This document shows positions 3,177 through 33,310 of a stretch of DNA of 64,000 nt, one piece after another; the first letter of the stretch is position 1; every line of letters starts with the position of its first letter. Origin of the DNA: Rhizobium sp. C4 (GTDB lineage Bacteria > Pseudomonadota > Alphaproteobacteria > Rhizobiales > Rhizobiaceae); NCBI RefSeq assembly GCF_021026315.1, contig NZ_JAJNCX010000002.1, positions 62,001-126,000 of the forward strand. Direction: 5' to 3'. The translations under genes and the position numbers were made by a program. The notes under the pieces were generated by a model. The model had not been told where the DNA came from. It did no database searches and saw nothing but the letters and a program-made list of their open reading frames with translations.

Positions 3177-4316
3177 TTAGACCGGTATGACCATGTCACG
3201 CAGCCCGGCAGCATTGCGGACCTCAGTCGCAGGGCTCACTGGCGCGAGCGTGTAATCCCGGCGCACGCCGCTCGCGGTTTCGAAGATATGCAGCGCTTCC
3301 GCGGGCAGGAGGAGACGGACTTCACGTCCTTCCTGGCCCCGGCCGTCGGTTGGCAGGACAACGGCAAGCGCGGTATCCGCCAGTGCGCAATAGGCAATAC
3401 GGCTGCCGCCCAGTTCCTCAACGAGATCGATGGTTACGGGCAAGCCTTCGGACTGATTGCCGCTGAGCAGGATGGCCTCGGGGCGAATGCCGACCGTGAC
3501 CGGACCTTCGGCAATGCCAGCCGCAACCTCGGCCAGAGGCGAAGCCGGCATTCCGGTTAGGCGAAGCTGGCCATCGCGGATTTCGGCCGGCAGGAGGTTC
3601 ATGGCGGGCGAACCGAGGAAGCCGGCAACGAACATGCTCGCCGGCTCGTGATAAACGACGGAGGGTGTACCGATCTGCTCGATGCGACCGCCATTCATGA
3701 CAATCAGGAGATCGGCGAGCGTCATCGCCTCGACCTGGTCATGGGTGACGAAAATCGAGGTGGCTTTCAGCCGGCGATGCAACTTCTTGATCTCGATGCG
3801 CATCTGCACGCGCAGCTTGGCGTCAAGGTTGGACAAGGGTTCGTCGAAGAGGAAGACGGAGGGCTCGCGCACGATGGCGCGGCCCATGGCGACGCGCTGG
3901 CGCTGGCCGCCGGACAAATGCGCCGGGCGGCGGTCGAGATAGGGTTCGAGCCCCAGAATGGCTGCGGCCTCGTCAACACGACGGCGGCGCTCTTCTTTGG
4001 AAAGACCGGCGATCTTCAGCGGATAATCCATGTTCCTGCGCACCGTCATATGCGGATAGAGTGCATAGTTCTGGAAAACCATGGCGCAGCCGCGGTCGGC
4101 CGGCTCGACATCGTTCATCAGCTCGCCATCGATCATGAACATGCCGGACGTGATGTCCTCAAGGCCGGCGATCATGCGCAGCAGCGTGGACTTGCCGCAG
4201 CCCGACGGGCCGACGATGACAACGAACTGGCCGTTTTCGATCTCGGCGTCGATGCCATGCAGCACTTCCTTGCCGTCATAGGCCTTGCGAAGCGAATTCA
4301 ACGTCAGATGGGTCAT
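3177..4316 (-). CDS. ABC transporter ATPase, UgpC/MalK type
   Basis: A 379-residue ATP-binding subunit of a carbohydrate-type (CUT1) importer. Walker A is GPSGCGKST (about 36-44), the signature LSGGQRQR about 134-141, Walker B VFLFDEP about 154-160, the switch His about 192 (VTHDQ), followed by a C-terminal TOBE/OB regulatory region (from about 240), as in UgpC and MalK. It is the last gene of a six-gene minus-strand operon. Its ATG overlaps the stop of the phosphatase gene (ATGA). The partner permeases and binding protein are upstream in the same operon. UgpC-like sequence with phosphoesterase neighbours favours a phosphorylated substrate such as glycerol 3-phosphate or a phosphodiester, by inference. 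Confidence 0.93.
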   Translation of the reverse strand: MTHLTLNSLRKAYDGKEVLHGIDAEIENGQFVVIVGPSGCGKSTLLRMIAGLEDITSGMFMIDGELMNDVEPADRGCAMVFQNYALYPHMTVRRNMDYPLKIAGLSKEERRRRVDEAAAILGLEPYLDRRPAHLSGGQRQRVAMGRAIVREPSVFLFDEPLSNLDAKLRVQMRIEIKKLHRRLKATSIFVTHDQVEAMTLADLLIVMNGGRIEQIGTPSVVYHEPASMFVAGFLGSPAMNLLPAEIRDGQLRLTGMPASPLAEVAAGIAEGPVTVGIRPEAILLSGNQSEGLPVTIDLVEELGGSRIAYCALADTALAVVLPTDGRGQEGREVRLLLPAEALHIFETASGVRRDYTLAPVSPATEVRNAAGLRDMVIPV

Positions 4317-5053
4317 TGCGCATCTCCCGTGAGCTTGGACTTGAGGCGGCCCGCGACAGCATCGCCGAGGCCAAGAGCATTCAGATAGTGGGCGATGGAG
4401 CCATGCCGTTCGCCGATATGGGCGAGCGTCGCGCGCATGGTTTCAGGCGCGCAGGCCAGCAGCGGTCGCATGGCCTCTTCGTCCATGCCCTGCTCGGCGG
4501 CATGTGCCAGAATGTCCTCCAGAAGCGGCGCAATCATCCGCCCCGTCAATGCGTAGTCCGCGATGATATCGTCGTCGGCAACACCCGCGTTCACGAGAAG
4601 AAGGGCGGCGATCAGTCCGGTGCGGTCCTTGCCTGCAGTGCAATGGAAAAGCACGGCACCCGCCTCTGCCTCGGCAATCACGGTCAGGATCGAGGCGATA
4701 ACCTCCATACGCTCCTCAAGCGCCCGGACGTAAAGCGCATGCAATGTGTCGATCTGCGGCCCATAGGTTGGCGCGAGATTTTCGAACAGCGAGACATTGA
4801 CGTAGCGCACGCGGGTGTCGGCGGCGAACGGATTGGGTTGCGCCTCAAGCTCGGCAGGGCGGCGCAGGTCGATGACGGTCCGGACACCTTCGGAAACGAG
4901 TGTATCGCGGCCGGCTTCGGTGATGCGGTGCAGGCCATCGGCTCGGAGAATGCGGCGCCAGAGCGTTTCAGCTGCGCCGGCCGAATAGCCGCCGAGATCC
5001 CGGATATTGAACGTGCCATCGATCGGCAGGTGGCGGTTCGGATGCATACCCAT
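4313..5053 (-). CDS. Tyrosine-phosphatase-family protein (dual-specificity-like)
   Basis: A 246-residue protein from the ATG at 5053, chosen because it overlaps the permease stop (TGATG), a classic coupling arrangement; an upstream in-frame start at 5164 would lie inside the permease gene. It begins with the DGTFNIRDLGGY signature of Y_phosphatase3/Siw14-like enzymes. It contains the catalytic P-loop HCTAGKDRTG, with nucleophile Cys about 138 and Arg about 144 (C-X5-R). A conserved VIDLRRPAE precedes it. No signal peptide is visible, so it acts in the cytoplasm. Being translationally coupled between permease and ATPase genes, it probably dephosphorylates the imported substrate or a product of it rather than acting in signalling, but that is inference. 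Confidence 0.85.
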   Translation of the reverse strand: MGMHPNRHLPIDGTFNIRDLGGYSAGAAETLWRRILRADGLHRITEAGRDTLVSEGVRTVIDLRRPAELEAQPNPFAADTRVRYVNVSLFENLAPTYGPQIDTLHALYVRALEERMEVIASILTVIAEAEAGAVLFHCTAGKDRTGLIAALLLVNAGVADDDIIADYALTGRMIAPLLEDILAHAAEQGMDEEAMRPLLACAPETMRATLAHIGERHGSIAHYLNALGLGDAVAGRLKSKLTGDAQ

Positions 5054-5925
5054 CAGCGGATCCCCGATTTCATGAAGGAGGAGACGACCTGCTGTTGCAG
5101 GACGATATAGAGGATGAAGATCGGCAGGCTGGCGAGCGTCGAGGCTGCCATCAGCGGCCCCCATTGCGTGCCTTCCGATGTCATGAACATCTGGATGCCG
5201 ATCTGGATGACGCTATGCTCCGGTGTACGAGTCAGCAGTAACGGCCAGAAATATTCGTTCCAGGTCGAGATGAAGATGAGGATGGCGAGCGAAGCAATCG
5301 TGCCGCGCAGGTTGGGTGTTACGACCTCCCACAGCACCCGCCAGCTGCCCGCGCCATCCATGCGCGCCGCCTCCAGTACCTCGTTCGGGAAACTGCGCAT
5401 GGCCTGAAGCAGCATGAGGACGGCAAGCGCCGAGGCGAAATGCGGCAGGATGAGCGCTGTCAGGCTGTCGAGCAGGCCGGCATTGGCGATCAGCAGGTAA
5501 TTCGGGATCATCACCACCTGCAACGGCACAAGCCAGGTCAGCGCGATCAGCACATGCACCAGCTTGTCGAAGGGGAAGCGCCAGCGGGCGAAGGCATAGG
5601 CCGCGAGCAGGCCGGTTATGAGCTGGACGACGGTGACGATTGCGGCCACGATCAGCGTGTTGACGAGCATCTGGCCGATCGGGATGGCGTTCAGCGCATA
5701 GGTATAGTTGTCGAGCGAGGCGGCGGTGGGCCAGAGGCTGCGCTCGAACACCTTGTTGGCCGGGCGCAGCGACGTGACGATCATCCAGTAGACCGGAAAC
5801 AGGCAGAAGAGTGACAGCAAAGCCATCACGACATGGCCACCGGCAAGGTCGAAGCCCTTCAGCCAGCCCGAAGCCGAGCTTGCCCGGCGGGCGCGACGGG
5901 GGAGGGCGAGCGCGTCAGTTGTCAT
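5053..5925 (-). CDS. ABC transporter permease, UgpE type
   Basis: A 290-residue inner-membrane permease of the CUT1 family with six hydrophobic segments and the EAA loop EAARMDGAGSWRVLWEVVTP near residue 190. It ends in FMKSGIR, typical of UgpE/MalG-like subunits. The ATG at 5925 lies inside the end of the upstream permease gene (11-base overlap), and its stop overlaps the phosphatase start. It pairs with the 5915-6859 permease to form the membrane channel. Confidence 0.93.
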   Translation of the reverse strand: MTTDALALPRRARRASSASGWLKGFDLAGGHVVMALLSLFCLFPVYWMIVTSLRPANKVFERSLWPTAASLDNYTYALNAIPIGQMLVNTLIVAAIVTVVQLITGLLAAYAFARWRFPFDKLVHVLIALTWLVPLQVVMIPNYLLIANAGLLDSLTALILPHFASALAVLMLLQAMRSFPNEVLEAARMDGAGSWRVLWEVVTPNLRGTIASLAILIFISTWNEYFWPLLLTRTPEHSVIQIGIQMFMTSEGTQWGPLMAASTLASLPIFILYIVLQQQVVSSFMKSGIR

Positions 5926-6859
5926 GGAACGAAACCTTGTCGATCAGCCGGAAGAGGACGAAGGCGAGCGCGCCGAAGCCGAGGAAGAGAATGACGGCGG
6001 CCGCCGAACTCCACCCGACGGAGAGGCTGGAGAAGCCGAAATCCCAGAGCACGTAATAGATGTTGGTGGAGGAGCCGAGTGGGCCGCCGCCGGTGAGCAC
6101 ATTGATATAGGAGAAGCTCCATTGTGCGCCCAAGAGGATCGTCATCATGACGAGGAAGAGCACGGTGGAACTCAGGAGCGGCAGGCGGATATCGCGGATG
6201 ATCTCCCACTTGCTTGCCCCATCCATCCGCGCCGCCTCGATCAGCGACGGATTGATGTTTGCGTTCGCCGCAGACAGGATCAGCGTCGAAAAGCCGATCA
6301 GCTTCCAGCCGGTGAGAACTACGATGGTCCAGAGGGCGAGATTGGGATCTTGCAGGAAGCGCAACGGACGGAAGCCGAAATCACGCATCATCATGTTGAC
6401 CATGCCATGGCCCGGATCGAGCAGCCAGCGCCAGATGGCGGCGGCAACGACCGGGGCAACGATCATCGGCACGAAGATGATGCCGCGATAGACCATTCGG
6501 GCGCGCGGCGGCAGATCGGCGGTGAAAATGGCAATTGCCAGCGGCAGCGCGACAGCGAGTGGCAATAGACCCGCGATGTACCAGCCGGTATTGCCGAGCG
6601 CCTGCCAGAATTTGGGCAGGGAGAAGATGTTGATGTAATTCGTCCAGCCGACGGGCACGATGGGCGAGGTCGGCAGCATGTCCCACTGGTAGAAGCTGAG
6701 ACGAAACGCATCGATCAGCGGCCAGTAGATCCAGACGATGAAGGTCGCGATGACCGGCGAGAGGTAAAGCCAGGGCAGAAGCCTGCGATTGGCCGTGCGG
6801 GTGCGGCGGCGGGCAAGCGGCTTCTCGGTGCTGCCCATGGTGGCGATGGCGGCGGTCAT
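5915..6859 (-). CDS. ABC transporter permease, UgpA type
   Basis: A 314-residue CUT1 permease. A cytoplasmic Arg-rich N-terminus (ARRRTRTANRR) is followed by about six transmembrane helices and the EAA motif EAARMDGASKWEIIRDIRLP near 205-225. The segment VLTGGGPLGSST is the usual UgpA/MalF-type periplasmic loop signature. It follows the binding-protein gene after a 70-base gap that holds a GC hairpin, and overlaps the next permease. Confidence 0.93.
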   Translation of the reverse strand: MTAAIATMGSTEKPLARRRTRTANRRLLPWLYLSPVIATFIVWIYWPLIDAFRLSFYQWDMLPTSPIVPVGWTNYINIFSLPKFWQALGNTGWYIAGLLPLAVALPLAIAIFTADLPPRARMVYRGIIFVPMIVAPVVAAAIWRWLLDPGHGMVNMMMRDFGFRPLRFLQDPNLALWTIVVLTGWKLIGFSTLILSAANANINPSLIEAARMDGASKWEIIRDIRLPLLSSTVLFLVMMTILLGAQWSFSYINVLTGGGPLGSSTNIYYVLWDFGFSSLSVGWSSAAAVILFLGFGALAFVLFRLIDKVSFHDN

Positions 6860-6889
6860 CTCATCGTCCCTTGAAACGTTCAGGATGGT

Positions 6890-6913
6890 CCCGGCGGAGA
6901 TGGCCCCGCCGGG
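6890..6913 (-). promoter_or_regulatory. GC-rich hairpin between binding-protein and permease genes
   Basis: CCCGGCGG (6890-6897) and CCGCCGGG (6906-6913) form a perfect 8-bp stem with an 8-base loop, 16 bases after the binding-protein stop on the minus strand. There is no T-run after it, so it is more likely an mRNA-stabilising or partial attenuation element than a full terminator. Confidence 0.5.
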
Positions 6914-6929
6914 TATGGTCGTGTGCCGG

Positions 6930-8249
6930 TCAGTTCATCGCGGCGGGCATCAGCTTCTGGGCGTTAGCCTGTGCATCCTTCATCGCCTTGGCCGGGTCGC
7001 CGCCACCGAAGACGGCCTGTTCGGCGCCGTCCATCATCGTCTTGACGATCTGGCGATAGTTGGCGCCGGGGAAGGATTCCCAAGGCTCGAGAACTGCCAG
7101 CTGCTGCAGGTTCGGCTGGATCAGCGGATGATCCTTGACCCATTCACCGAGATATTGCGGGTCGTTGACGATGTCCGTGCGCAGCGGCAGGTAGCCGATC
7201 TGCGAGGTGATGACTGTGTAGGCATGCTTGGAAGTCATGAACTTCATGAGTTCCCAGGCGGCGCGCTGCTTGACCGGGTCATGGCTCATGATGACGAGTG
7301 CCGAGCCCGAGTTGTTCGGACGCACCGGCTTGTCGCCGAAGCGCGGCATGGTCGAGGCGCGAAGCTCGAAATTGCCCTTCGCACCCTTCACCAGATAGCC
7401 CTGCACGGCAGAGGTCTGCAGATACATGCCGACCGTGCCGGCAGCCATGGCGTCCATGGCGGCGGAGATGTCGAGATTGCTGTAGACGCCGGACTTGTAG
7501 AGGTCCTGCAGCATCGAGACAGCCTCGATGCCTTCGGCGGAGGCGAAGGTCAGCGTCTTGCGGTCCTTGGAGAGCACGCTCGCACCGTTGGAACGGATCA
7601 GCCCCTGGAACAGCCAGTCGCCGGCGGACGGTCCGAAAATGCCGGTGGCAATGCCTTCGGCACCGGCCTTGTCGACGATCGCCTTGGCGGCGACCTTCAC
7701 TTCGGCCCAGGTCTTGGGCGGATTTTCCGGGTCAAGGCCAGCCTTGCGGAAGAGGTCGGCATTGTAGAAGAGAACCGGCGTTGAGAACGTGTAGGCGAGA
7801 CCATAGGTCTTGCCTTCATAGACGCCAAGCGCCAGACCCTTGGGCGAAATGCCCTCGAAATGCGCCTTCAGCTCTGCCGTCGGAATGATGTCTTCGAGCG
7901 CCACGGCACCGAGGTTGTGGACCATGAAGTCGAAATCCGAAAACACCATCTGGGCGACATCCGGACCGCGGCCGGCAGCGACATCGGCTTGGACGCGTGT
8001 GCTGATTTCGGCAGACGTCACGCCGACGCCGTTGACCTTGATGTTCGGATTGGCAGCCTCGAATTCGGCGATCAGCTTCTTCGTCGCCTCGCCGCCGATA
8101 CCAGCGGTGGCAAGGTTGTAGTTGTAGTAGCTGATCGTGACGGGTGCCTCGACCTTGGCCGGAATGTCACCGGCAAAGGCGAAGGCGGGCAGCGCAAGGG
8201 CGCCGAGAGCCAGCGAGACGCCGGCGGAAAGAAGCGTTCTGCGGTTCAT
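6930..8249 (-). CDS. ABC transporter solute-binding protein, family 1 (UgpB-like)
   Basis: A 439-residue periplasmic binding protein. The ATG at 8249 is preferred over an upstream in-frame GTG (8264) because GGAGAGAC precedes it and it gives a clean signal peptide: MNRRTLLSAGV followed by a hydrophobic stretch ending in ALPAFA. The mature part has family-1 features: LIAEFEAANPNIKVNGVGV, RGPDVAQM and WAEVKVAAKAIVD. The closest recognisable type is UgpB or a multiple-sugar binding protein. Co-transcription with two phosphoesterases hints at a phosphorylated ligand. The gene starts 11 bases after the stop of the metallophosphoesterase gene. Confidence 0.92.
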   Translation of the reverse strand: MNRRTLLSAGVSLALGALALPAFAFAGDIPAKVEAPVTISYYNYNLATAGIGGEATKKLIAEFEAANPNIKVNGVGVTSAEISTRVQADVAAGRGPDVAQMVFSDFDFMVHNLGAVALEDIIPTAELKAHFEGISPKGLALGVYEGKTYGLAYTFSTPVLFYNADLFRKAGLDPENPPKTWAEVKVAAKAIVDKAGAEGIATGIFGPSAGDWLFQGLIRSNGASVLSKDRKTLTFASAEGIEAVSMLQDLYKSGVYSNLDISAAMDAMAAGTVGMYLQTSAVQGYLVKGAKGNFELRASTMPRFGDKPVRPNNSGSALVIMSHDPVKQRAAWELMKFMTSKHAYTVITSQIGYLPLRTDIVNDPQYLGEWVKDHPLIQPNLQQLAVLEPWESFPGANYRQIVKTMMDGAEQAVFGGGDPAKAMKDAQANAQKLMPAAMN

Positions 8250-22840: not shown

Positions 22841-25498
22841 ATGCCCACTGAAACCCGCACCACTTGCCCCTATTGCGGCGTCGGCTGCGGCGTGATTGCC
22901 CGTGTCGGGGATGACGGCAAGGTCAGCGTCAAGGGCGACCCGGACCATCCGGCGAATTTCGGCCGGCTCTGTTCCAAAGGCTCGGCGCTGGCCGAAACGC
23001 TCGATCTCGAAGGCCGCGTGCTTTACCCGCAGGTCGATGGCGCCCGCGCCAGCTGGGACGACGCGCTTGATCTCGTCGCGCAACGTTTCAGCCAAACGAT
23101 TGCCGCGCATGGACCGGATTCGGTTGCCTTCTATGTCTCCGGGCAATTGCTGACGGAAGATTATTATGTCGCCAACAAGCTGATGAAGGGCTTCATCGGC
23201 TCGGCCAATATCGACACGAATTCGCGCCTCTGCATGGCCTCCTCGGTCGCCGGCCACCGCCGCGCCTTCGGGGCGGATACGGTTCCGGGCTGCTACGAGG
23301 ATCTGGACGAGGCCGAGCTTGTCGTTCTCACCGGCTCAAACATGGCCTGGTGCCACCCAGTCCTCTACCAGCGGATTGTCGCCGCCAAGGCGGCCCGCCC
23401 GGCAATGAAGATCGTGGTGATCGATCCGCGCCGCACCGCCACTTGCGACATTGCCGATCTGCATTTGCCCGTCCGCGCCGATGGCGATGTGGCGCTGTTT
23501 ACCGGCCTCTTCCACCATCTGGCCGATACCGGCCGGGTCGACGAGGACTTTGTCGGCGCGCACACATCGGGTTTCAGCGAGGCGCTGATGGCAGCAGCCC
23601 GGCTGAATATGGCCGATCTGTCCGAGGCGACCGGCCTTACCGGCATGGCGCTGCGCCAGTTCTTCCGGCTCTTTGGCGAAACGGAAAAGGTCGTCACCTG
23701 CTACAGCCAGGGCGTCAACCAGTCGGCGGTCGGCACGGACAAGGTGAATGCCATTCTCAACTGCCATCTCGCCACCGGCCGCATCGGCCGGCCGGGGATG
23801 GGGCCGTTTTCGCTGACGGGCCAGCCGAACGCCATGGGCGGGCGCGAGGTGGGTGGGCTGGCCAACATGCTCGCCGCCCATATGGAGATCGGCAGCGCGG
23901 CGGATTGCGACACCGTGCAACGTTTCTGGAACGCGCCCGTCATCGCACGCGCACCCGGCCTCAAGGCCGTCGAGATGTTCGAGGCGGTGGCGGATGGGCG
24001 GATCAAGGCGATCTGGATCATGTCGACCAACCCTGTCGTCTCCATGCCGGATGCCGATGCGGTGCGGGCAGCGCTGAAAGCCTGTCCCTTTGTCGTCGTG
24101 TCCGACATCCAGGCGGAGACGGACACCGCGCGGCTTGCCCATGTGCTCCTGCCCGCGACCGGCTGGGGCGAGAAATCCGGCACCGTCACCAATTCCGAAC
24201 GTCGCATCTCGCGACAGCGTCCGTTCCTCTCGGCCCCCGGCGCGGCGCGGCCGGACTGGTGGCAGATGGCGGAGGTCGGCAAGCGCATGGGCTTCGCATC
24301 CGCCTTCGATTTCGCCTCGCCTGCGGCGATCTTTGCCGAACATGCCGCGCTCTCCGCCTTCGAGAATGAGGGCAAACGCGATTTCGATATCGGCCACCAT
24401 GCCGGGATCGACGAGGCCGGCTATGAAGGGCTCATCCCGTTTCAATGGCCGCAGCCGACGGGCGCGTCTCCACGGAAGCGCTTCTTCGCCGACGGACGCT
24501 TCTATCACACGGACGGCAAGGCGCGTTTTGTGCCGGTGACGCCGCCGGCCCCTGCCGCACGGGATGCGGAGTTCCCCTTCACGCTGAACACCGGCCGCGT
24601 GCGCGACCATTGGCACACGATGACGCGCACGGGCAAAAGCGCGCGCCTTTCCGCCCATATGGCCGAACCGTCTTGCGAGATGAACCCACTGGACGCACAG
24701 GCGCTTGGCATTGCCGATGCAGACCTCGTGAGGGTCGCTGCTCCTTCGGGACGCGCGGTCATCGTCCGCGCACTCTTGACGGACAGGCAGGCGCAGGGCG
24801 CGGTCTTCGTTCCGATGCACTGGACGGGCGAGACGGCCGCCGCCGCGCGGGTCGATACGCTCGTGCCCGGCCGTGTCGATCCGATTTCCGGCCAGCCGGC
24901 GCTGAAACTGGCTGCCGTTTCGGTTGCCCGGTATGCGGCATCGGCTCATGGGTTTCTCGTTTCATCGTCCATGCCTTCGTCGCTGCCCTTCGATTACTGG
25001 GCCATTGCCAGGGCGGATGGCGGCTATCGTCTGGAACTTGCGGGCGATGTGCCTGGGCAGGGGTGGGAGGCCTGGCTGCGGGAAAGTCTGGCACTTGCCG
25101 GCGGGGTGGAGATTTCCGGCTATGCCGATGCCGAAAGCGGCGATCATCGCCTGCTTGTCTTCGAGGGAGACCGGCTTGTAGCGGCACTTTTCATCGCGCG
25201 TGGCCCGGTCGCGGTCTCGCGGCAATGGGCCGTCGAGCAATTGACGGTCAGCCACACAGACCCTTCGTCCCGCTTCATGCTGATCGCCGGGCGTCCGGCA
25301 CCCGGCCGGCCGGACAAGGGCGCCATCGTCTGCTCCTGCTTCTCGGTCGGCATCAACGAGATTGCCTGCGCCGTGCGCGGGGGCTGCTGGTCGGTCGAAA
25401 AGATCGGCGAAAGCCTGAATGCAGGCACCAATTGCGGCTCCTGCCGCCCCGAAATCAGGAGGATCATCGATGCGACGCAAGTCCTTGCCGCCGAGTGA
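22841..25498 (+). CDS. nasA: Assimilatory nitrate reductase, catalytic subunit
   Basis: An 885-residue molybdopterin (bis-MGD) enzyme reducing nitrate to nitrite in the cytoplasm. The N-terminal [4Fe-4S] site is CPYCGVGCGV with GRLCSKG (residues about 8-50). The Mo-cofactor domains follow, with NTDSRLC-type segment NIDTNSRLCMASSVAG, GSNMAWCHP, STNPVVSMPDAD and the dinucleotide-binding domain near 585-700 (FTLNTGRVRDHWHTMTRTGKS). The C-terminus adds a BFD-like [2Fe-2S] domain (CSCFSV near 832, CGSCRPE), as in NasA/NarB types that take electrons from a partner. The ATG at 22841 is right because upstream in-frame codons lie in the repeats. No separate NasC-type reductase is in the window. Confidence 0.96.
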   Translation: MPTETRTTCPYCGVGCGVIARVGDDGKVSVKGDPDHPANFGRLCSKGSALAETLDLEGRVLYPQVDGARASWDDALDLVAQRFSQTIAAHGPDSVAFYVSGQLLTEDYYVANKLMKGFIGSANIDTNSRLCMASSVAGHRRAFGADTVPGCYEDLDEAELVVLTGSNMAWCHPVLYQRIVAAKAARPAMKIVVIDPRRTATCDIADLHLPVRADGDVALFTGLFHHLADTGRVDEDFVGAHTSGFSEALMAAARLNMADLSEATGLTGMALRQFFRLFGETEKVVTCYSQGVNQSAVGTDKVNAILNCHLATGRIGRPGMGPFSLTGQPNAMGGREVGGLANMLAAHMEIGSAADCDTVQRFWNAPVIARAPGLKAVEMFEAVADGRIKAIWIMSTNPVVSMPDADAVRAALKACPFVVVSDIQAETDTARLAHVLLPATGWGEKSGTVTNSERRISRQRPFLSAPGAARPDWWQMAEVGKRMGFASAFDFASPAAIFAEHAALSAFENEGKRDFDIGHHAGIDEAGYEGLIPFQWPQPTGASPRKRFFADGRFYHTDGKARFVPVTPPAPAARDAEFPFTLNTGRVRDHWHTMTRTGKSARLSAHMAEPSCEMNPLDAQALGIADADLVRVAAPSGRAVIVRALLTDRQAQGAVFVPMHWTGETAAAARVDTLVPGRVDPISGQPALKLAAVSVARYAASAHGFLVSSSMPSSLPFDYWAIARADGGYRLELAGDVPGQGWEAWLRESLALAGGVEISGYADAESGDHRLLVFEGDRLVAALFIARGPVAVSRQWAVEQLTVSHTDPSSRFMLIAGRPAPGRPDKGAIVCSCFSVGINEIACAVRGGCWSVEKIGESLNAGTNCGSCRPEIRRIIDATQVLAAE

Positions 25499-25583
25499 CG
25501 GCAGGGAGCGCATCACGCGGCTCGCCTAGCTGCCGGTCTTCTGGCCGCTGACGACAGGCCGCCTTGCCGAGTTGCCGTGGGGC

Positions 25584-26150
25584 CTATGACGATCGTGGCA
25601 TGGCTTGGGGAATGTCGGACATTCTGCCGCCGGCGTCGAGATCGACGGCGTGCTGCCAGATCGTGCGCGCTCGTTGAAGCGGAGTGTCGCGAAGCTTGAT
25701 CGTCTTTCCCATGAGGTCGGTCACTGACAGGTCCCAATCGCCTTCGCTCAGGTCGCGCCATTCGACATTCAGATGAATGGCGGAATGTTCGAACAGGTAG
25801 CGCAGCGCGCGTGAGGGCTGGGTAACGCCGAATTCGAGATCATCGGGCGAAATGGCCGCCTGTTTGGGAAAAGGGCCGGTCTGTCCGGTTCTCGCCCAGG
25901 CGACGATTTCGCTCAGCAGCCTTGCCTGATAGCCCACCGAGGCAATCAGCCTTCGCCTGGAAAACCCGAGGATCCTGCTCGGCGCGTCCAGCGCCTCATC
26001 CGGCAGATTGTTGAGGAGGCGGGCAAAATAGGCGGTGCCGCGACGCGCCCAGTCGAGTTCGCGAGAGGGCGCGCCGGGCGCATCGTAACGCGCGCCCAGA
26101 CCCTGACGCGCGCGCAGGGCTGCGCGCGCTTCGTTAAGCGCGGTGCTCAT
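25584..26150 (-). CDS. Maleylpyruvate isomerase-like (DinB fold) protein, metal ligands altered
   Basis: A 188-residue protein of the mycothiol-dependent maleylpyruvate isomerase/DinB superfamily. Segments YQARLLSEIVAWARTGQTGP and RARTIWQHAVDLDAGG match that family. Its ATG (26150) overlaps the gentisate dioxygenase stop (ATGA), so it is the last gene of the gentisate operon. Aligned by eye to the Corynebacterium enzyme, the first zinc His appears to be Ser (LIASVGYQ) and the Glu four residues before the last His appears to be Thr (RTIWQH); only one ligand remains. Rhizobia lack mycothiol, and a GST-type isomerase is present in the same operon. The protein may therefore be a non-catalytic or repurposed relative. 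Confidence 0.75.
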   Translation of the reverse strand: MSTALNEARAALRARQGLGARYDAPGAPSRELDWARRGTAYFARLLNNLPDEALDAPSRILGFSRRRLIASVGYQARLLSEIVAWARTGQTGPFPKQAAISPDDLEFGVTQPSRALRYLFEHSAIHLNVEWRDLSEGDWDLSVTDLMGKTIKLRDTPLQRARTIWQHAVDLDAGGRMSDIPQAMPRSS

Positions 26151-27250
26151 CGCTCCGGCTCCGCAACATGGGTGCGCATGAAGTTCAGCCGCTCCATGAT
26201 CGGCGCATCGGAGAAGCGGAAGAGATCGAGCTGGGTCTCGGCCTGGAACGACCACGAGATCCAGGACGGGATGACGAACATATCGCCGACATCGAGCGTC
26301 TGCGTGACGCCGTCGATGACGACTGCGCCCTTGCCCTGAAACACCTGAAACACATTCGATCCCACTTCGCGCCGCACCGGCGTTTCGGTGCCTTCGCGCA
26401 GGCGATGGAACTCGCAGCGGATCGTCGGCATGACATCGCCGCCGGTCGTCGGGTTGACATAGCGGATTGCCGCATGCCCCTGTTCGACGGTTGCCGGCTG
26501 GCCTTCCTCTTCGAGCAGCAATTGTTCGGTCAGCGCCCGGTCAGTATGTTCCCAGCGATAGGCGCCGATCGGCGAATTGACGGTGTCGCGCAGACCCGAG
26601 AGCGGGCGCAGGCCCGGATGGCACCAGAGCCGTTCGCCGCGCGAGAATTTCGGCGTCGAATAATCCGTCACCCGGTCCGAGCCGAATTCGAAGAAGCCGA
26701 CATCCATCTGCTGGCAGAAGGGAATGTCGAGCCCGTCGATCCAGGCCATCGGGTGGTCGGTGTCGTTATGGTGGCCATGGAAATGCCAGCCGGGGGTGAG
26801 CAGAAGATCACCGCGGCTCATGCGAACCGGATCGCCATTGACGACAGTCCACACGCCTTCGCCTTCGATGACGAAGCGGAACGCGTTTTGCGAATGGCGG
26901 TGTTCGGGCGCCGTCTCGCGCGGTCCCAGATACTGGATCGCGGCCCAGAGCGTCGGGGTGATATAGGCATTGCCGCCGAGGCCGGGATTGGCAAGGCCGA
27001 GTGCACGGCGCTCGCCGCCACGGCCGACGGGAACGAGTTCGCCCGCCTTCTGCGCCAGCGGCAGAAGATCGGCCCAGCGCCACAGATGCGGCACGGCCTT
27101 CGGCATCGGATGACGTGGCATCAGGTTGCCCACCTGCGTCCAGAGCGGCATCAGCTGCTGTTCTTCGAAGGCCTGGTAAAGGGCGCGCAGTTCCGGCGTG
27201 TCGTCGGGCATCATCGCATTGGCATGGGCTTTTTTGGCCTGATCGAGCAT
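26147..27250 (-). CDS. gtdA: Gentisate 1,2-dioxygenase
   Basis: A 367-residue bicupin Fe(II) enzyme cleaving gentisate to maleylpyruvate. The ATG at 27250 has an AAGGAGG site 9 bases upstream. The N-terminal cupin holds the iron ligands (APEHRHSQNAFRFVIEG, His about 117 and 119; GWHFHGHHND, His about 156-160). A second, degenerate cupin lies at about 265-345 (NVFQVFQGKGAVVIDG, GDMFVIPSW). Length fits GDO enzymes (about 340-380). It overlaps the DinB-type gene and follows the GST-type isomerase gene after 31 bases. Confidence 0.95.
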   Translation of the reverse strand: MLDQAKKAHANAMMPDDTPELRALYQAFEEQQLMPLWTQVGNLMPRHPMPKAVPHLWRWADLLPLAQKAGELVPVGRGGERRALGLANPGLGGNAYITPTLWAAIQYLGPRETAPEHRHSQNAFRFVIEGEGVWTVVNGDPVRMSRGDLLLTPGWHFHGHHNDTDHPMAWIDGLDIPFCQQMDVGFFEFGSDRVTDYSTPKFSRGERLWCHPGLRPLSGLRDTVNSPIGAYRWEHTDRALTEQLLLEEEGQPATVEQGHAAIRYVNPTTGGDVMPTIRCEFHRLREGTETPVRREVGSNVFQVFQGKGAVVIDGVTQTLDVGDMFVIPSWISWSFQAETQLDLFRFSDAPIMERLNFMRTHVAEPER

Positions 27251-27281
27251 AACGAATTCCTCCTTGTTGACGGCCTCGGTC

Positions 27282-27929
27282 TCACGCCGCATCGGGCTGG
27301 TTGGGCGGGGCGGCCTTGTTGAATGCGGGGATTGCGTCGAGGCGCTTGAAGATGCGGTCGATCTCCGGCCAGGTGTCGGTTGCGATATCGAAGCGGCGAT
27401 TGTTCCAGACCTGTGCATAGAGGCAGAGATCGGCCATGGTCGGCGTGTCGCCATGGCAGAATGCGCCGGTGCGGGGATTGGCGGCAAGTTCCGCCTGCAA
27501 GGCGTCGAAGGTGAGCCCGACCCAATGGGTGAACCACTCCTTTTGTGCGGCCTCGTCCGCGCCGAAACGCTCGCCGAGATAGCCAAGCACCCGCAGATTG
27601 TTGAGCGGATGGACTTCGCAGGCGATCATCAGGGACAGCGCGCGAACGCGTGCCCGCCCATCCGCATCAGCCGGCAGGAGAGGGGGCTCGGGATGCGTCT
27701 CCTCCAGCCACTCGATGATCGAAAGCGACTGCGTCAGATAAGACCCGTCCTCGCGCTCCAGAACCGGTACGAGACCGGCCGGGTTCATGGCGAGGTAATC
27801 CGGCTGGCGGGTATCGCCCCGGCGCAGCACATAGGGAATGTAGTCGTAATCCAGACCCTTCAGGTTCAGCGCCGCGCGCACGCGCACCGAGGTTGAAGAG
27901 CGGAAGAAATTGTGAAGCTTCAGCGTCAT
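27282..27929 (-). CDS. nagL: Maleylpyruvate isomerase, zeta-class GST type
   Basis: A 215-residue glutathione transferase-like protein. The zeta-class motif SSTSVRVRAALNLKGL (about 11-26) binds glutathione. NPAGLVPVLEREDG and LTQSLSIIEWLEE complete the thioredoxin-like half, and the alpha-helical domain has the usual GDTPTMADLCLYAQ. In gentisate clusters this enzyme converts maleylpyruvate to fumarylpyruvate with glutathione; the closely related maleylacetoacetate isomerase is the alternative, made unlikely by the neighbours. Its ATG overlaps the stop of the hydrolase gene (ATGA). Confidence 0.92.
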   Translation of the reverse strand: MTLKLHNFFRSSTSVRVRAALNLKGLDYDYIPYVLRRGDTRQPDYLAMNPAGLVPVLEREDGSYLTQSLSIIEWLEETHPEPPLLPADADGRARVRALSLMIACEVHPLNNLRVLGYLGERFGADEAAQKEWFTHWVGLTFDALQAELAANPRTGAFCHGDTPTMADLCLYAQVWNNRRFDIATDTWPEIDRIFKRLDAIPAFNKAAPPNQPDAA

Positions 27930-28621
27930 GCGCGCGGCCCTATCCTCGTTTCGATGGCGCCGAGCCCTTCGATCGACACGACGCAGACATCGCCGGGAAC
28001 GAGAGGTCCGACGCCGGCCGGCGTGCCGGTCATGATGAGATCGCCGGGGGCGAGCGCAATCGAATGCGACAGGAAGGAAATCACGTCCGGCACCGACCAG
28101 ATGAGTTCCGCAAGATCGGCATCCTGCTTGACCGTCCCGTTGACGGTGAGCCGGATCGAACCCTTGTCCGGATGGCCGACATCGGTCACCGCATGGATCG
28201 GGCCGATGATGGCGGAGCGGTCGAAGGCCTTGCCGAAATCCCACGGCCGACCCTGATCGCGGGCGGTGAGCTGCAGGTCGCGGCGCGTGAGGTCATTGCC
28301 AACGGCATAGCCCCAGACGTGATCAAGCGCCTGGTCAAGCGCGATGTCGCGTCCGCCCTTGCCGATGGCAACGACCAGTTCGGCCTCGTAATGGAAATTC
28401 TCCGTCTGCGGCGGATAGGCGACCGTCTCGCCGCTGTCGACCACGGCATCGGCGGGCTTCGAGAAGAAGAACGGCGGTTCGCGATCCGGATCCTTGCCCA
28501 TCTCGCGGGCATGGGCCGCATAGTTGCGCCCCACGCAGAAAATGCGCCGGACAGGGAAGCGCGCGTCGCCACCGGAAACGGCAACCGTGGGCGTTGCGGG
28601 AGCGGGAAATACGAGCGTCAT
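27926..28621 (-). CDS. nagK: Fumarylpyruvate hydrolase (FAH family)
   Basis: A 231-residue fumarylacetoacetate-hydrolase-fold enzyme, expected to split fumarylpyruvate into fumarate and pyruvate. Typical motifs are IFCVGRNYAAHAREMG, FFFSKPADAVV, the metal-binding ENFHYEAELVVAIG, and GYAVGNDLTRRDLQ, followed by MTGTPAGVGPL near the C-terminus. The ATG at 28621 follows AAGGAAC; an in-frame ATG at 28639 would add six residues. It is translationally coupled to the isomerase gene. Confidence 0.93.
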   Translation of the reverse strand: MTLVFPAPATPTVAVSGGDARFPVRRIFCVGRNYAAHAREMGKDPDREPPFFFSKPADAVVDSGETVAYPPQTENFHYEAELVVAIGKGGRDIALDQALDHVWGYAVGNDLTRRDLQLTARDQGRPWDFGKAFDRSAIIGPIHAVTDVGHPDKGSIRLTVNGTVKQDADLAELIWSVPDVISFLSHSIALAPGDLIMTGTPAGVGPLVPGDVCVVSIEGLGAIETRIGPRA

Positions 28622-28699
28622 GACAAGTTCCTTCTGCATGTCCGGCGTTCCGCCTCGCCGTGCGGAACGCGCATTTTGTGAAAAGGTCGAGGTGGGAGG

Positions 28700-29425
28700 T
28701 CAGTCCCTGCCGGCTTCCATGATCTTCTGGGCCGTGAGCGCCGGGGCGGTGACGAATGTCGAGTGGCTGCCGGGCATCGACACCAGCCGGTAAAGCCCCA
28801 GCTTTTCGGAAAGGCGCGGATGGAAGGGCAGCGATTGCGGCAGCGACGTATCCTCGGTGCAATGCAGGAAGGACTTGCCGATCTGCATTTCCGCCGGGTT
28901 CTTCGACAGCGCTATGCGGTCGTTCATCGTGTTGAACGGTTGCGGGTTCAACGAGTCGAAAAGCGCCTTTGCATCCGCCTCGCTGCCATCGTTGAAGAAG
29001 GCTTCGCGCAGGATCGGAAGTGGGAACAGGACCTCGCCCGTGTCGCCGGCCAGCGCCGGGAACAGCGCCTGATAATGCGGCGGGCACATGTCCATCAGGC
29101 TCTCGCCATTGTTGGGAACGAAGGCGCAGTAATAGATCAGGCGACGGACGCGGCCGGGTGCCAGCCGGTCTGCGGCACCGGTGATCGGAAGGCCGCCCCA
29201 GCTGTGGCCGAGCAGGATGGCGTCATGGATATTGTTCTCGTCGAAATAGTCGACGAGCGAGTTGATTGCATCCTCAAGGGTCGTCGTCTTCCTGCTGTCG
29301 CCGGGACGGTTGCCCTTCAGGGTCGGCAGGAACACGGTGTGTTCGGCGGCGCGAAGATGCTTGGCGCATTCTTCGAAATGTTGCCCCTCATGACAGGCGC
29401 CGTGAACCAGTACGTAAGTTGCCAT
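28700..29425 (-). CDS. Alpha/beta hydrolase, candidate gentisyl-CoA thioesterase or salicylate esterase
   Basis: A 241-residue hydrolase with an AGGAGGAG site before the ATG at 29425. The nucleophile elbow is GHSWGG (Ser about 76). The oxyanion segment is VHGACHEG near the N-terminus and the catalytic His is in PGSHSTFVTAP. This pattern resembles plant methyl-salicylate esterases and hydroxynitrile lyases. It lies directly downstream of the ligase-monooxygenase fusion. Two roles fit the context: hydrolysing the aryl-CoA product (gentisyl-CoA) to gentisate, or releasing salicylate from an ester such as methyl salicylate. Sequence does not separate them. Confidence 0.8.
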   Translation of the reverse strand: MATYVLVHGACHEGQHFEECAKHLRAAEHTVFLPTLKGNRPGDSRKTTTLEDAINSLVDYFDENNIHDAILLGHSWGGLPITGAADRLAPGRVRRLIYYCAFVPNNGESLMDMCPPHYQALFPALAGDTGEVLFPLPILREAFFNDGSEADAKALFDSLNPQPFNTMNDRIALSKNPAEMQIGKSFLHCTEDTSLPQSLPFHPRLSEKLGLYRLVSMPGSHSTFVTAPALTAQKIMEAGRD

Positions 29426-29456
29426 AAAACTCTCCTCCTGTTTATGACGTTGAAAT

Positions 29457-32216
29457 TCAGGCCACGATCTTTTCGTCGCCTCTGATCGGTGCTGCCGCGA
29501 TGGCTTGCCGGTCGATCTTGCCGGTGCCGGTCTTGGGCAGGTCGGTGACATATTCGACGATGCGCGGATATTTGTAGGGCTGAAGCTGCGACTTGATATA
29601 GGCGCGCAGCGCCTCGCTCTGCGCCTCATTGCCCTGCCGGCCCTCCCGAAGCCGGATCACGGCGCGCAGCGTCATCCGCCTGTCCTCCATCTGGTGGCCG
29701 AGCACTGCGCATTCGTGAACGTCCGGGTGCTCGTTGAGGCAGCGTTCGACCTCAAGCGGCCACACCCATTGACCCGACACCTTGATCAATTCGTCGGCGC
29801 GGCCCTGGAAATAATAGTAGCCGTCCTTCTCGATGAAGCGGTCGCCGGTATAGATCCAGTCGTCGCGCATGGTCTCGCGCGTCTTGTCCGGGCGGTTCCA
29901 GTAGGTTGGGGCGGAGGAATGTCCGCGCACGAACATCACGCCCTCTTCGCCCGGTCCCGGCACTGCGCCATCCGGCGTTTCCAGCCGGATTTCATAGCCC
30001 GGCACCCGCGCGCCGGCCGAGCCGATGCGGTGGTCTGTCAGGCTGTTCGACAGATAGATATGCAGAAGCTCGGTCGAGCCCAGCCCCTCCGTCGGTCCAT
30101 GACCGGTCAGCGCCTTCCAGGCCGCGTAAATGTCCTCGGACAGAATTTCTGCCGCCGACATCGATTGGCGCAGCGAACTCAGGTCGCGATGCTTGGCCGC
30201 ATCGGCGCGCGCCAGCGAGGTGTAAAGCGTCGGCAGCCCGAAGAGCACGGTCGGCCGGAAGGTCTCGATGGTTTCGAGCACAGCATCCGCACGTGGCTGG
30301 CCGGGCATCAGAACGGTGGTCGCGCCGATCGAGAAGGGGAAGGTGAAGGCATTGCCGAAGCCATAGGCGAAGAACACCTTCGGCACCGAGAAGCAGATAT
30401 CGTCTTCCTTGAGCTTCAGCACATGGCGACCGAAGGAGGCCTGCGTATAGGCCATGTCGTGATGGAGATGAACGATGCCCTTCGGGCGACCTGTCGATCC
30501 GGAGGAATACATCCAGAACGCCATGTCGTCCGGGCCGGTTGCGGCTGAGGCGAGGCTTGTGGCGTGTCCGGCCACAAAATCGGTCGCAGCGATATGCTTG
30601 TAACCCTTGGCCGATCCATTGGCGACAACAATTGTCTTGAGCGATGTGCCCTTGAGGACATCTTCGGCAAACACGCCGAGGAAGGTTGCCTCGCACAGTG
30701 CGACCCGCGCGCCCGTGTCCTGAAGAAAGTAATTCAGCACGTCCGGCGGGGTCTGCGTGTTGAGGAGCACGGGGACGAAGCCCGCGCGCACCGCGCCGAA
30801 GAAGGCTGCCGGATAGACGGGCGTGTCATCGATGAAAAACGCGATGCGTTCGCCCTGTTCAAGGCCTGCTGCGGTAAAGGCATTGCCCCAGCGGGCGGCT
30901 TCCGCGATCAGGTCCGCATAGGTTATGGTGCCGGCGGGGCCGGTGACGGCGATCTTATGAGGGTTGCGCTCCAGATTGTCCCACAGGATGCTGGAACAAT
31001 TGCGATGGGCGGCCTTGTCGAAGCCGATTTCGGCGCTGCCAGGCGTGTTGGCGGCAACCGGATCGGAGATGGATGTGGAGGGCTTGCGTCCCTCTGCCTC
31101 ATATCGGGCCGCAAATTCCGGGGCCATGCGGCGCAGGCGCTCCATGTCGATCCGGCCCGAGCGGGTGATGTAGTCGAAGGCGAAATCGACCGGCGGCAGA
31201 TCCATCTTGGCCGCGAAGCTCTCATACCATTTGGCTGAGGTGTTCGCCGCATCGACGATCTTCTTGGCAATCGGCTGGCGTTCGGCCTGATAGGCGGCGA
31301 GTGCTTCGTCGACGTCGTCATGGCTGGCGAGTGCCCTGACCAGTGCAATGGCATCTTCCATGGCAAGGCGCGTTCCCGAACCGATGGAGAAATGGGCGGT
31401 GTGGACGGCGTCGCCGAGAAGCACATGGCGGCCGGACACCCATTTATCGCACCAGAGCCGGGGGAATTGCCGCCACATGGACTTGTTGGTGATCAGCGGT
31501 GCGCCGGCCAGCGTATCGGCAAAAATGCCCTCGCAAAGCCTTGCGCTTTCATCCTCGCCCATATGCTCGAAGCCATAGGCCTTGAAGGTCTCGTCGTCGC
31601 ATTCGACGATGAACGTGCTGCGGTTGGGCTGGAAGCGATAGTGGTGGGCGTTGAACGCGCCCTTGTCGGTCTTCACGAAGGTCTGCGTCAGCGTGTCGAA
31701 CGGCCGTTCCGTGCCGAACCAGGCAAAATGATTGCTGAAATGGTCGAGATGGACGCCAAAGCCCGCTTCATCCGAGCGACGCACCAGCGAGTTCAGCCCG
31801 TCCGCGCCGATGACGAGATCCGCGTCGAAGTCGGCAAGCGAGTCGATATGCTGCGAAAACCGGATTTCGACGCCCAGCGCCTCGGCGCGCTTGCGCAGGA
31901 TTTCGATCAGCTCGAGACGACCCACGGCCGAAAAGCCGACGCCATCGAGCACGACCTGACCCGCCGGCAGGTTGAGCGTCATGTTGCGCCAGCGCTCCAT
32001 GGCCGGCGTCACCAGATCATGCGTTTCCGGATCGTCTGCTTTCAGGAAATCCAGTGCCTGATCGGAAAAAACGACACCGAAGCCGAAGGTCGCACCCTTG
32101 GCATTCTGCTCCGTCACGCGGAGCCGGACATGCGGCATCATGCGCCGCAGCAGGATCGCCGTATAGAGCCCTGCCGGACCGCCGCCCAGAATCTCAACTG
32201 TTGTCAGCTTTGACAT
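29457..32216 (-). CDS. Bifunctional FAD aryl-CoA monooxygenase / aryl-CoA ligase fusion
   Basis: A 919-residue fusion. Residues 1-375 are an FAD monooxygenase: GGGPAGLYTAILLRR (11-25), GADGLNSLVRR near 138 and the FAD-ribityl GD motif HVLLGDAVHTAHFSIGSG near 264-281, as in salicylyl-CoA 5-hydroxylase and 2-aminobenzoyl-CoA monooxygenase. Residues about 405-919 are an AMP-forming benzoate-CoA ligase-type enzyme: YSSGSTGRPKG (570-580), YTGDRF, and the catalytic Lys motif PKTGTGKIDRQ near the end. A linker of about 25 residues (380-405) joins them. The downstream genes cleave gentisate, so the likely chemistry is activation of salicylate (or benzoate or 3-hydroxybenzoate) to its CoA ester and ring hydroxylation to gentisyl-CoA in one polypeptide. 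It is first in its operon and divergent from the IclR gene. Confidence 0.9.
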   Translation of the reverse strand: MSKLTTVEILGGGPAGLYTAILLRRMMPHVRLRVTEQNAKGATFGFGVVFSDQALDFLKADDPETHDLVTPAMERWRNMTLNLPAGQVVLDGVGFSAVGRLELIEILRKRAEALGVEIRFSQHIDSLADFDADLVIGADGLNSLVRRSDEAGFGVHLDHFSNHFAWFGTERPFDTLTQTFVKTDKGAFNAHHYRFQPNRSTFIVECDDETFKAYGFEHMGEDESARLCEGIFADTLAGAPLITNKSMWRQFPRLWCDKWVSGRHVLLGDAVHTAHFSIGSGTRLAMEDAIALVRALASHDDVDEALAAYQAERQPIAKKIVDAANTSAKWYESFAAKMDLPPVDFAFDYITRSGRIDMERLRRMAPEFAARYEAEGRKPSTSISDPVAANTPGSAEIGFDKAAHRNCSSILWDNLERNPHKIAVTGPAGTITYADLIAEAARWGNAFTAAGLEQGERIAFFIDDTPVYPAAFFGAVRAGFVPVLLNTQTPPDVLNYFLQDTGARVALCEATFLGVFAEDVLKGTSLKTIVVANGSAKGYKHIAATDFVAGHATSLASAATGPDDMAFWMYSSGSTGRPKGIVHLHHDMAYTQASFGRHVLKLKEDDICFSVPKVFFAYGFGNAFTFPFSIGATTVLMPGQPRADAVLETIETFRPTVLFGLPTLYTSLARADAAKHRDLSSLRQSMSAAEILSEDIYAAWKALTGHGPTEGLGSTELLHIYLSNSLTDHRIGSAGARVPGYEIRLETPDGAVPGPGEEGVMFVRGHSSAPTYWNRPDKTRETMRDDWIYTGDRFIEKDGYYYFQGRADELIKVSGQWVWPLEVERCLNEHPDVHECAVLGHQMEDRRMTLRAVIRLREGRQGNEAQSEALRAYIKSQLQPYKYPRIVEYVTDLPKTGTGKIDRQAIAAAPIRGDEKIVA

Positions 32217-32246
32217 GAAACCTCCCTAAATCCTCAAAACTCCCTG

Positions 32247-32266
32247 AAATTGAGAATATGCAATTT
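32247..32266. promoter_or_regulatory. Candidate operator of the gentisate operon
   Basis: AAATTG-AGAATATG-CAATTT is an inverted repeat with 6-bp arms, 30 bases upstream of the fusion-gene start. It is in the 290-base divergent region shared with the IclR gene; the AT-rich stretch 32247-32345 is the most promoter-like part. The rest of this gap holds no gene that I can see. Confidence 0.4.
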
Positions 32267-32506
32267 TCCATTCTGTGCAATAAGTTCCGTATAGTGAAAT
32301 TCAAGAAAAACAGCATTTGCCTGAATCCATTCGATTTTCTTTTTCGAAAGCCGATGTGAAACAGGTGATTTGGAGGTCAAGTTGGCATATTCAGGCAGCG
32401 GGATTGACCGCAATCACCTCGGATCGGGCGGTCCGTGGGGACCTGTTCAAACCGGGCGGCGATGGGTATCGTCAAACAGGAAATTTGAAAGTTCGAGGCA
32501 GGATCT

Positions 32507-33310
32507 GTGGGCGTGATGGACAATGAAGATGACAGCGAACGCCAGTCCGGTGGCATCCAGTCCCTGGACGCGGCGCTGAAATTGTTGAACACCATGCAGG
32601 CCTATGCGGGGCCGGTTTCGCTGTCGGAACTGGCACGCGATTGCGGCATGCCGCCCAGCAAGGTCCACCGCTATCTGACGTCCTTTTCCAATGCCGGGCT
32701 GGTGGCTCAGGCCGGGCGTTCCGGCAAGTATGATCTCGGCCATGGCGCCGTCATGCTGGGTCTGGCGGCGCTTGCCCGGCACGACTTCGTCAACCGGGCG
32801 GCGGATGTGTTGCCGGAACTATGCCAGGAAACGGGCCTGACCGTGCTTCTTTCGGTCTGGGGCACGCATGGCGCAACGGTGGTTCGCTGGGAGCGCGCGG
32901 CAACGCCTGCCGTCACCTCGATGGGCCTGGGGACAATCCTGCCGCTTCTCAACTCTGCGACCGGGCGGGCGTTTCTGGCCTGGGCGCCGCAAGCGCCGCT
33001 TCAGAACATCCGCAATGCCGAACTGCGGGAAGCTCGCCGGACATCCACCACGGCGGATCAGCGGATCACGAGCGAAAAGGATATCGAAAAGCTGGTCGCC
33101 GAGACGCGCCAGCGCGGCTACGCCTCTGTCGAAGGCCGTTATATTCCGGGGCTGGTTGCCATCGCTGCGCCCATTCTCGACTGGCAGGGCGAGGCGCAGG
33201 CGGTTGTCACACTCATCGGAACCGATCCCGAGGTGATGCAGCCGGATTCACCCTTGACGAAATCGCTGATCGCCTGCTGCCAGCGCCTGTCCTACGCCAA
33301 GATCGGGTGA
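32507..33310 (+). CDS. IclR-family transcriptional regulator
   Basis: A 267-residue regulator. An N-terminal winged helix-turn-helix (about 18-75; GPVSLSELARDCGMPPSKVHRYL) precedes the IclR effector domain (about 85-260; TGLTVLLSVWGTHGATVV, RGYASVEGRYIPGLVAIAAPI). The start is either GTG 32507 or ATG 32516; GAGG at 32495-32498 favours the GTG. Placed between the gentisate operon (minus) and the cat-ben operon (plus), it most likely controls the divergent gentisate genes, since the cat promoter has its own BenM/CatM-type site. Confidence 0.9.
   Translation: MGVMDNEDDSERQSGGIQSLDAALKLLNTMQAYAGPVSLSELARDCGMPPSKVHRYLTSFSNAGLVAQAGRSGKYDLGHGAVMLGLAALARHDFVNRAADVLPELCQETGLTVLLSVWGTHGATVVRWERAATPAVTSMGLGTILPLLNSATGRAFLAWAPQAPLQNIRNAELREARRTSTTADQRITSEKDIEKLVAETRQRGYASVEGRYIPGLVAIAAPILDWQGEAQAVVTLIGTDPEVMQPDSPLTKSLIACCQRLSYAKIG

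Follow-up and report, generated by a model that had tools for sequence, protein, structure and literature searches.

A natural fusion of a putative salicylyl-CoA hydroxylase and its ligase at the head of a gentisate operon in Rhizobium sp. C4

The Fused Frame and Its Operon

The stretch of DNA analyzed in this work (the window) comprises 64,000 nucleotides from Rhizobium sp. C4 (assembly GCF_021026315.1, contig NZ_JAJNCX010000002.1, positions 62,001 to 126,000 of the forward strand); all the coordinates given below, unless assigned to another locus, are positions within it. On its minus strand lies a gene of 919 stop-free codons (29457..32216), beginning with ATG and preceded by AGGGAGG, whose product joins in one frame an FAD monooxygenase and an AMP-forming ligase of the benzoate-coenzyme A (CoA) ligase type. 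A first-pass annotation had described this gene as an aryl-CoA ligase fused to a hydroxylase and heading a gentisate operon, and both the Pfam domains and the operon genes bear this out: FAD_binding_3 covers residues 5-323, AMP-binding residues 413-773, and AMP-binding_C residues 822-900. The motifs listed there for the monooxygenase (GGGPAG and GD) and for the ligase (SSGSTGRPKG and PKTGTGKIDR) are all present. Accordingly, the protein can be subdivided into a CehH-like monooxygenase (residues 1 to about 370), a linker (about 371-405), and a CehG-like ligase (about 406-919). With the NCBIfam models, the ligase half passes TIGR02262 (benzoate-CoA ligase family; 493.2 bits, cut-off 375.25), and the hydroxylase half matches the bifunctional salicylyl-CoA 5-hydroxylase/oxidoreductase NF006101 over the first half of the latter (384 bits, cut-off 1078).

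No stop codon interrupts the two halves, a point on which the annotation had made the fusion depend. Moreover, no in-frame ATG, GTG, or TTG occurs across codons 365-475; thus, a standard start codon for the ligase half is lacking at the junction. The scan of one genome per species retrieved 153 encoding stretches, from which the best 80 were kept, ranked by similarity to the fused query (a ranking that may favor fused forms). The same joined frame was found in 49 of these 80 loci, which excludes a sequencing artefact; the 919-residue frame is real and, as far as the search for other fusions advised in the annotation is concerned, it is not singular.

In the alignment of the window protein with those of 44 of the 49 fused loci, the key motifs of both halves are invariant. 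The invariant ligase residues include those aligned with Ala227, Tyr228, and His333 of 4eat, which presumably line the benzoate pocket. The window ligase thus keeps the Ala, Tyr, and His of the benzoate-CoA ligase family (TIGR02262; 4eat and 2v7b), from which it differs in being fused to a monooxygenase. When compared with two 91% relatives, the hydroxylase has a ratio of nonsynonymous to synonymous substitution rates (dN/dS) of 0.05, the ligase one of 0.08, and the 35-residue linker one of 0.14-0.16; the corresponding values obtained with two relatives at about 80% are 0.11, 0.12-0.13, and 0.21-0.30.

The fused gene is followed, on the same strand, by genes encoding an alpha/beta hydrolase of 241 residues (28700..29425, after a gap of 31 bp; GHSWGG at residue 73, TEDTS at 190, and GSHS at 219), an FAH-family hydrolase, probably a fumarylpyruvate hydrolase (27926..28621, gap of 78 bp), a maiA-family isomerase, probably a glutathione-dependent maleylpyruvate isomerase (27282..27929, overlap of 4 bp; TIGR01262, 253 bits, cut-off 171), and a gentisate 1,2-dioxygenase (26147..27250, gap of 31 bp; TIGR02272, 279 bits, below the cut-off of 442). 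Two genes are to be added to the list of the annotation. The first, at the end of the operon, codes for an MDMPI_N-family protein, i.e., one with a maleylpyruvate isomerase N-terminal domain (25584..~26150, minus strand; its inferred start overlaps the dioxygenase stop). The second codes for a divergent IclR-family regulator (32507..33310, plus strand), relatives of which were found in 62 of the 80 loci. Past the latter lie genes for muconate cycloisomerase, catechol 1,2-dioxygenase, and benzoate dioxygenase (benABC). The scan of positions 25400-32600 for promoters and terminators gave no more matches than expected by chance.

The operon therefore embeds two unrelated maleylpyruvate isomerase-like genes, one of the glutathione type (maiA family) and one carrying the mycothiol-type N-terminal domain; relatives of the MDMPI_N gene recur at other loci.

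Relationship with the Salicylyl-CoA Pathway

The three steps of a CoA-dependent route from salicylate to gentisate have reportedly been shown for the proteins CehG, CehH, and CehI. On plasmid pAt1 of Agrobacterium tumefaciens, cehH and cehG are separate genes, with cehI (gentisyl-CoA thioesterase) adjoining and divergent, and with FAH, maiA, cupin dioxygenase, and MPI-N genes downstream. The hydroxylase half of the window protein is 71.8% identical over 372 residues to the pAt1 protein named cehH (salicylyl-CoA hydroxylase), and the ligase half is 72.9% identical over 527 residues to that named cehG (salicylyl--CoA ligase). The gentisate genes stand in the same order and a divergent IclR gene is shared; unlike this system, the window has one chain in place of two proteins, no CehI at the locus, and a hydrolase gene after the fusion.

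According to this degree of identity to the split homologs, the fused protein is most simply read as CehH plus CehG, naturally joined in one chain; we consider this reading probable, and from homology the protein is predicted to convert salicylate into gentisyl-CoA. Its C-terminal half would adenylate salicylate and form salicylyl-CoA, which the N-terminal FAD half would then hydroxylate para to the hydroxyl, using NAD(P)H and oxygen and yielding gentisyl-CoA. Gentisate, possibly released by the hydrolase, would be degraded to pyruvate and fumarate by the dioxygenase, the isomerase, and the fumarylpyruvate hydrolase of the operon. The identity of the product is suggested by the accompanying genes, since the hydroxylase and ligase occur with two unlike groups of gentisate dioxygenases (33 loci with sequences 75-95% identical to that of the window, and eight loci with 34-38%), whose common substrate is gentisate. 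The CoA-dependent route to gentisate proposed in the annotation is thus in agreement with the homology to CehH and CehG and with the genes that follow.

As for the substrate, the annotation had suggested salicylate or benzoate. The former is consistent with the closeness to CehH and CehG, while the latter finds no support: class A flavin hydroxylases require an activating ring group, and benzoate is probably handled by the benABC and cat genes, which lie beyond the divergent IclR gene.

Some observations weigh against the assignment to salicylate. The ceh names come from the pAt1 plasmid record, and, among the best 25 NCBIfam matches, no equivalog cut-off was passed either by the window halves or by the named CehH and CehG. 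A match of the ligase half to HbdA, the model for 3-hydroxybenzoate--CoA ligase, was also obtained (373 bits, cut-off 1000). Furthermore, no clear cehI was found in the window genome, and a relative of the dioxygenase was not found in 39 of the 80 fetched stretches, where some contigs end.

The chemistry of the operon most likely belongs to an already known pathway, here in a fused version found repeatedly among Alphaproteobacteria. The work of Zhou et al. 2021 (Mol. Microbiol. 116:783), on Rhizobium sp., is cited in an eLife article (PMC11335346), the same route is said to have been reported earlier for Streptomyces sp. WA46 (review, PMC4600096), and a route from salicyl-CoA to gentisate is predicted from the genome of Allorhizobium vitis (PMC9219206). 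The cluster predicted in the latter, Av-GC1, has this route via gentisate in common with the window operon, and the passage concerned does not mention a fusion.

Distribution and History of the Fusion

Besides the 49 fused loci, 30 of the 80 carry two separate frames, and from one (L083) the ligase half alone was recovered. In 29 of the 30 split loci, the frames are close or overlapping, and in L081 they lie 2.5 kb apart. Since the two frames overlap by 4 bp in several split relatives, the step to a fusion is a short one. Within the family of the window organism, 23 of 297 genomes gave a match at an E-value of 1e-150 or better, and 12 of them have one frame over both halves; within its order, 29 of 297 genomes matched at 1e-120 (the two samples share some genomes).

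The tree was built from the window and 79 loci, L083 and the junction columns being left out. Mapping the fused and split states onto it required six changes, five of which are forced by well supported branches. A single origin of the fusion was rejected by the approximately unbiased (AU) test, both with all 50 fused rows in one clade (p = 2.4e-31) and with L054 and L057 removed (p = 1.0e-4); the tests were run on quick trees, and the group lacking these two loci was picked after the tree had been seen. When the hydroxylase half was rooted with a paralog from the same genome, the split state was placed at the root, again with six changes and with several deep branches weakly supported. These data suggest that the fusion probably derived from adjacent genes and was gained or lost several times.

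The fused gene also occurs on plasmids of clover rhizobia. The plasmid records inspected label the fused enzyme only as "benzoate-CoA ligase family protein", so that a probable salicylate route of root-associated and marine Alphaproteobacteria is hidden from view. Some copies look decayed: in Rhizobium leguminosarum (L020 and L059) the hotdog matches are short and no dioxygenase match lies nearby, the FAH matches of L059 being broken, and in the record of R. beringeri TP24 (L109) two overlapping genes take the place of the frame, the break lying inside the ligase half. A second fusion in the genome of Rhizobium sp. C4 (C3, nominally 954 residues) was rejected, as three stops lie between its monooxygenase and ligase genes.

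Relationship between the Two Halves

The model of the fused protein has a mean predicted local distance difference test (pLDDT) score of 84, with confident domains, a predicted template modeling (pTM) score of 0.55, and a weak hinge at residues 377-381. The C-terminal half resembles the benzoate-CoA ligase 4eat (template modeling (TM) score 0.81 by target, about 36-37% identity), and the N-terminal half resembles VioD (8gqr, TM 0.87). The model does not reveal how the two active sites face each other.

It is likely, and compatible with a CehH-CehG fusion, that the two halves work independently and that their joining only balances their amounts, with no transfer of salicylyl-CoA between them. 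The coexistence of 49 fused and 30 split loci with the six changes on the tree, five of them forced, points in this direction, as does a linker that is short, variable, and poorly modeled. The same holds for two loci (L041, 8001-11996, and L078, 8001-11989) that carry a free hydroxylase gene of 380 codons ahead of the fused gene; their operons thus provide two hydroxylase domains per ligase. Against independence, the joined frame has been kept in 49 loci, and the window junction is devoid of a start codon. The opposite scenario, in which the ligase would hand salicylyl-CoA over to the flavin site of the same chain without its release, and in which repeated independent fusions would have been selected for this transfer, seems unlikely. 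Should it be true, salicylate (perhaps derived from methyl salicylate through the neighboring hydrolase) would be used without tying up CoA. In any case, the natural fused and split versions represent a clean set for testing the effects of fusion on a two-step CoA pathway.

The Alpha/Beta Hydrolase and the Missing CehI

The annotation had assigned the release of gentisate from gentisyl-CoA to the alpha/beta hydrolase; the lack of a strong CehI match in the window's own clade speaks for this assignment, but the counts over the 80 loci and an esterase-like fold make it doubtful. A CehI-like hotdog gene is present in 45 of the 80 fetched stretches, mostly flanked by the IclR and hydroxylase genes. 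Pfam thioesterase families were confirmed in the three hotdog genes tested, and the copies of L013 and L069 are 50% and 96% identical, respectively, to the named CehI. At the window locus, where the interval between the fusion and the IclR gene measures 290 bp, there is no CehI; the best match in the genome is 25% identical and lies elsewhere, beside another hydroxylase cluster.

A role upstream of the fused enzyme, as an esterase that liberates salicylate from one of its esters (e.g., methyl salicylate), has close to an even chance. The structural model of the hydrolase (pLDDT 87) has the alpha/beta-hydrolase fold, with structural matches at TM 0.72-0.90 that include BioH-like esterases, and the expected Ser nucleophile and catalytic His (Ser75 and His221) are invariant across seven aligned relatives. 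The best match both by structure (TM 0.90, 35% identity) and by sequence is 6tj2, an entry titled as homologous to a tobacco protein that we take to be SABP2. SABP2 itself, titled as a methylsalicylate esterase, comes lower among the structural matches with about 20% identity, and the same matches include hydroxynitrile lyases and pyrethroid hydrolases, which weakens the case. The hydrolase coexists with a CehI-like gene in four of the 80 loci (L013, L024, L035, and L038), as would suit an esterase; on the other hand, such a role would leave the gentisyl-CoA hydrolase of this genome unaccounted for.

That the hydrolase acts as the gentisyl-CoA thioesterase in place of the hotdog CehI appears somewhat less probable, and tentative at best. 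The pattern within the window's own clade favors such a replacement. Of the two nearest genomes (91% relatives), one (G187) has a weak CehI match and the other (G113) none, and in both of them, as in the window genome, the alpha/beta hydrolase directly follows the fusion. Among the 12 genomes of the family with a joined frame, eight carry a strong hotdog match alongside, these three carry the hydrolase, and one (G032) has neither there. Nevertheless, the three genomes belong to one clade, and the replacement therefore counts as one event. A substitution across the whole family is contradicted by the co-occurrence over the 80 loci: the hydrolase is found in two of the 35 loci without a hotdog gene and in four of the 45 with it, which argues against a general exchange of the two genes. 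The closest folds, i.e., 6tj2 and then the BioH-like and SABP2 esterases, also speak against it. Some genomes with a strong hotdog match also carry the hydrolase outside this locus. On the whole, a salicylate-supplying esterase is at least as likely as a substitute thioesterase.

In 33 of the 80 loci (e.g., L016, L034, and L057), the fetched stretch contains neither a CehI-like gene nor a relative of the hydrolase, which is likewise at odds with a replacement.

The Dioxygenase and the Salicylate 1,2-Dioxygenase

The window dioxygenase is 83% identical to that of Pseudaminobacter salicylatoxidans DSM 6986 (L069, 12342-13448), which in turn is identical to the PDB entry 2phd at all but one of 368 aligned positions. 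We equate 2phd, named gentisate 1,2-dioxygenase in the PDB, with the known salicylate 1,2-dioxygenase of this species, in agreement with PMC11264262. In L069, the hydroxylase shares 99.7% identity with the named CehH and the ligase 99.6% with CehG, and the operon is 98.5% identical to that of pAt1 over 7.6 kb. Since the L069 dioxygenase is the 2phd protein except for one residue, the gene of the crystallized salicylate 1,2-dioxygenase sits in a split ceh-type operon, which suggests an origin for that enzyme.

The window enzyme belongs to the same kind of operon and differs from 2phd in having Ala in place of Gly106, the residue expected of a salicylate 1,2-dioxygenase. The dioxygenases of L069 and pAt1 (L094, 13346-14452) differ at three of 368 residues, including position 106 (Gly in L069 and Ala in pAt1). 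Of the 34 close sequences, taken from the window and 33 loci, only L069 has Gly at this position, the other 33 having Ala; eight further genomes, some of which may be among the 80 loci, all have Ala as well. A mutation at position 106 of the salicylate 1,2-dioxygenase is said to abolish the activity on salicylate. We infer from these sequences that direct salicylate cleavage may have arisen by one substitution within a CoA-pathway operon. Gly106 is not a general rule, because the eight divergent dioxygenases also carry Gly at the aligned position.

Other Substrates and Related Clusters

The CoA-ester routes of 3- and 4-hydroxybenzoate both yield gentisyl-CoA, and the same chemistry on one of these compounds (6-hydroxylation of the CoA ester for the former; hydroxylation with a side-chain shift for the latter) is improbable here: the HbdA match of the ligase half, below its cut-off, and downstream genes that fix only the product would allow it, but, leaving aside the HbdA proteins themselves, the named proteins closest to the two halves are salicylyl-CoA enzymes (about 72-73% identity), and both the dioxygenase of the salicylate 1,2-dioxygenase type and the SABP2-like hydrolase are indicative of salicylate.

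With the CehH-CehG fusion as the preferred reading and the split pathway already known, what is new is that the two enzymes are joined, that the joined form has been gained or lost repeatedly, that CehI is missing, and that the salicylate dioxygenase is linked to this type of operon. The literature search, which covered titles and the beginnings of abstracts and left most subscription papers outside, retrieved no named fused version, which does not imply its absence from print; the text matches to ceh gene names, among those listed, were apparently unrelated words.

A different combination is represented by the bifunctional enzyme PRK08255/NF006101, whose first half resembles the window hydroxylase and whose partner is a reductase of the old yellow enzyme type instead of a ligase. 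The paralog of the hydroxylase in the same genome is 42% identical, and a true member of the bifunctional kind is present in that genome: at L010 (C3:58000-70000), the gene at 4831-7146 encodes a full bifunctional salicylyl-CoA 5-hydroxylase/oxidoreductase (1354 bits, cut-off 1078). Its neighbors include a hotdog-like gene (3591-4010) and an apparent RidA-like gene, and it is perhaps part of a second cluster for the hydroxylation of CoA esters.

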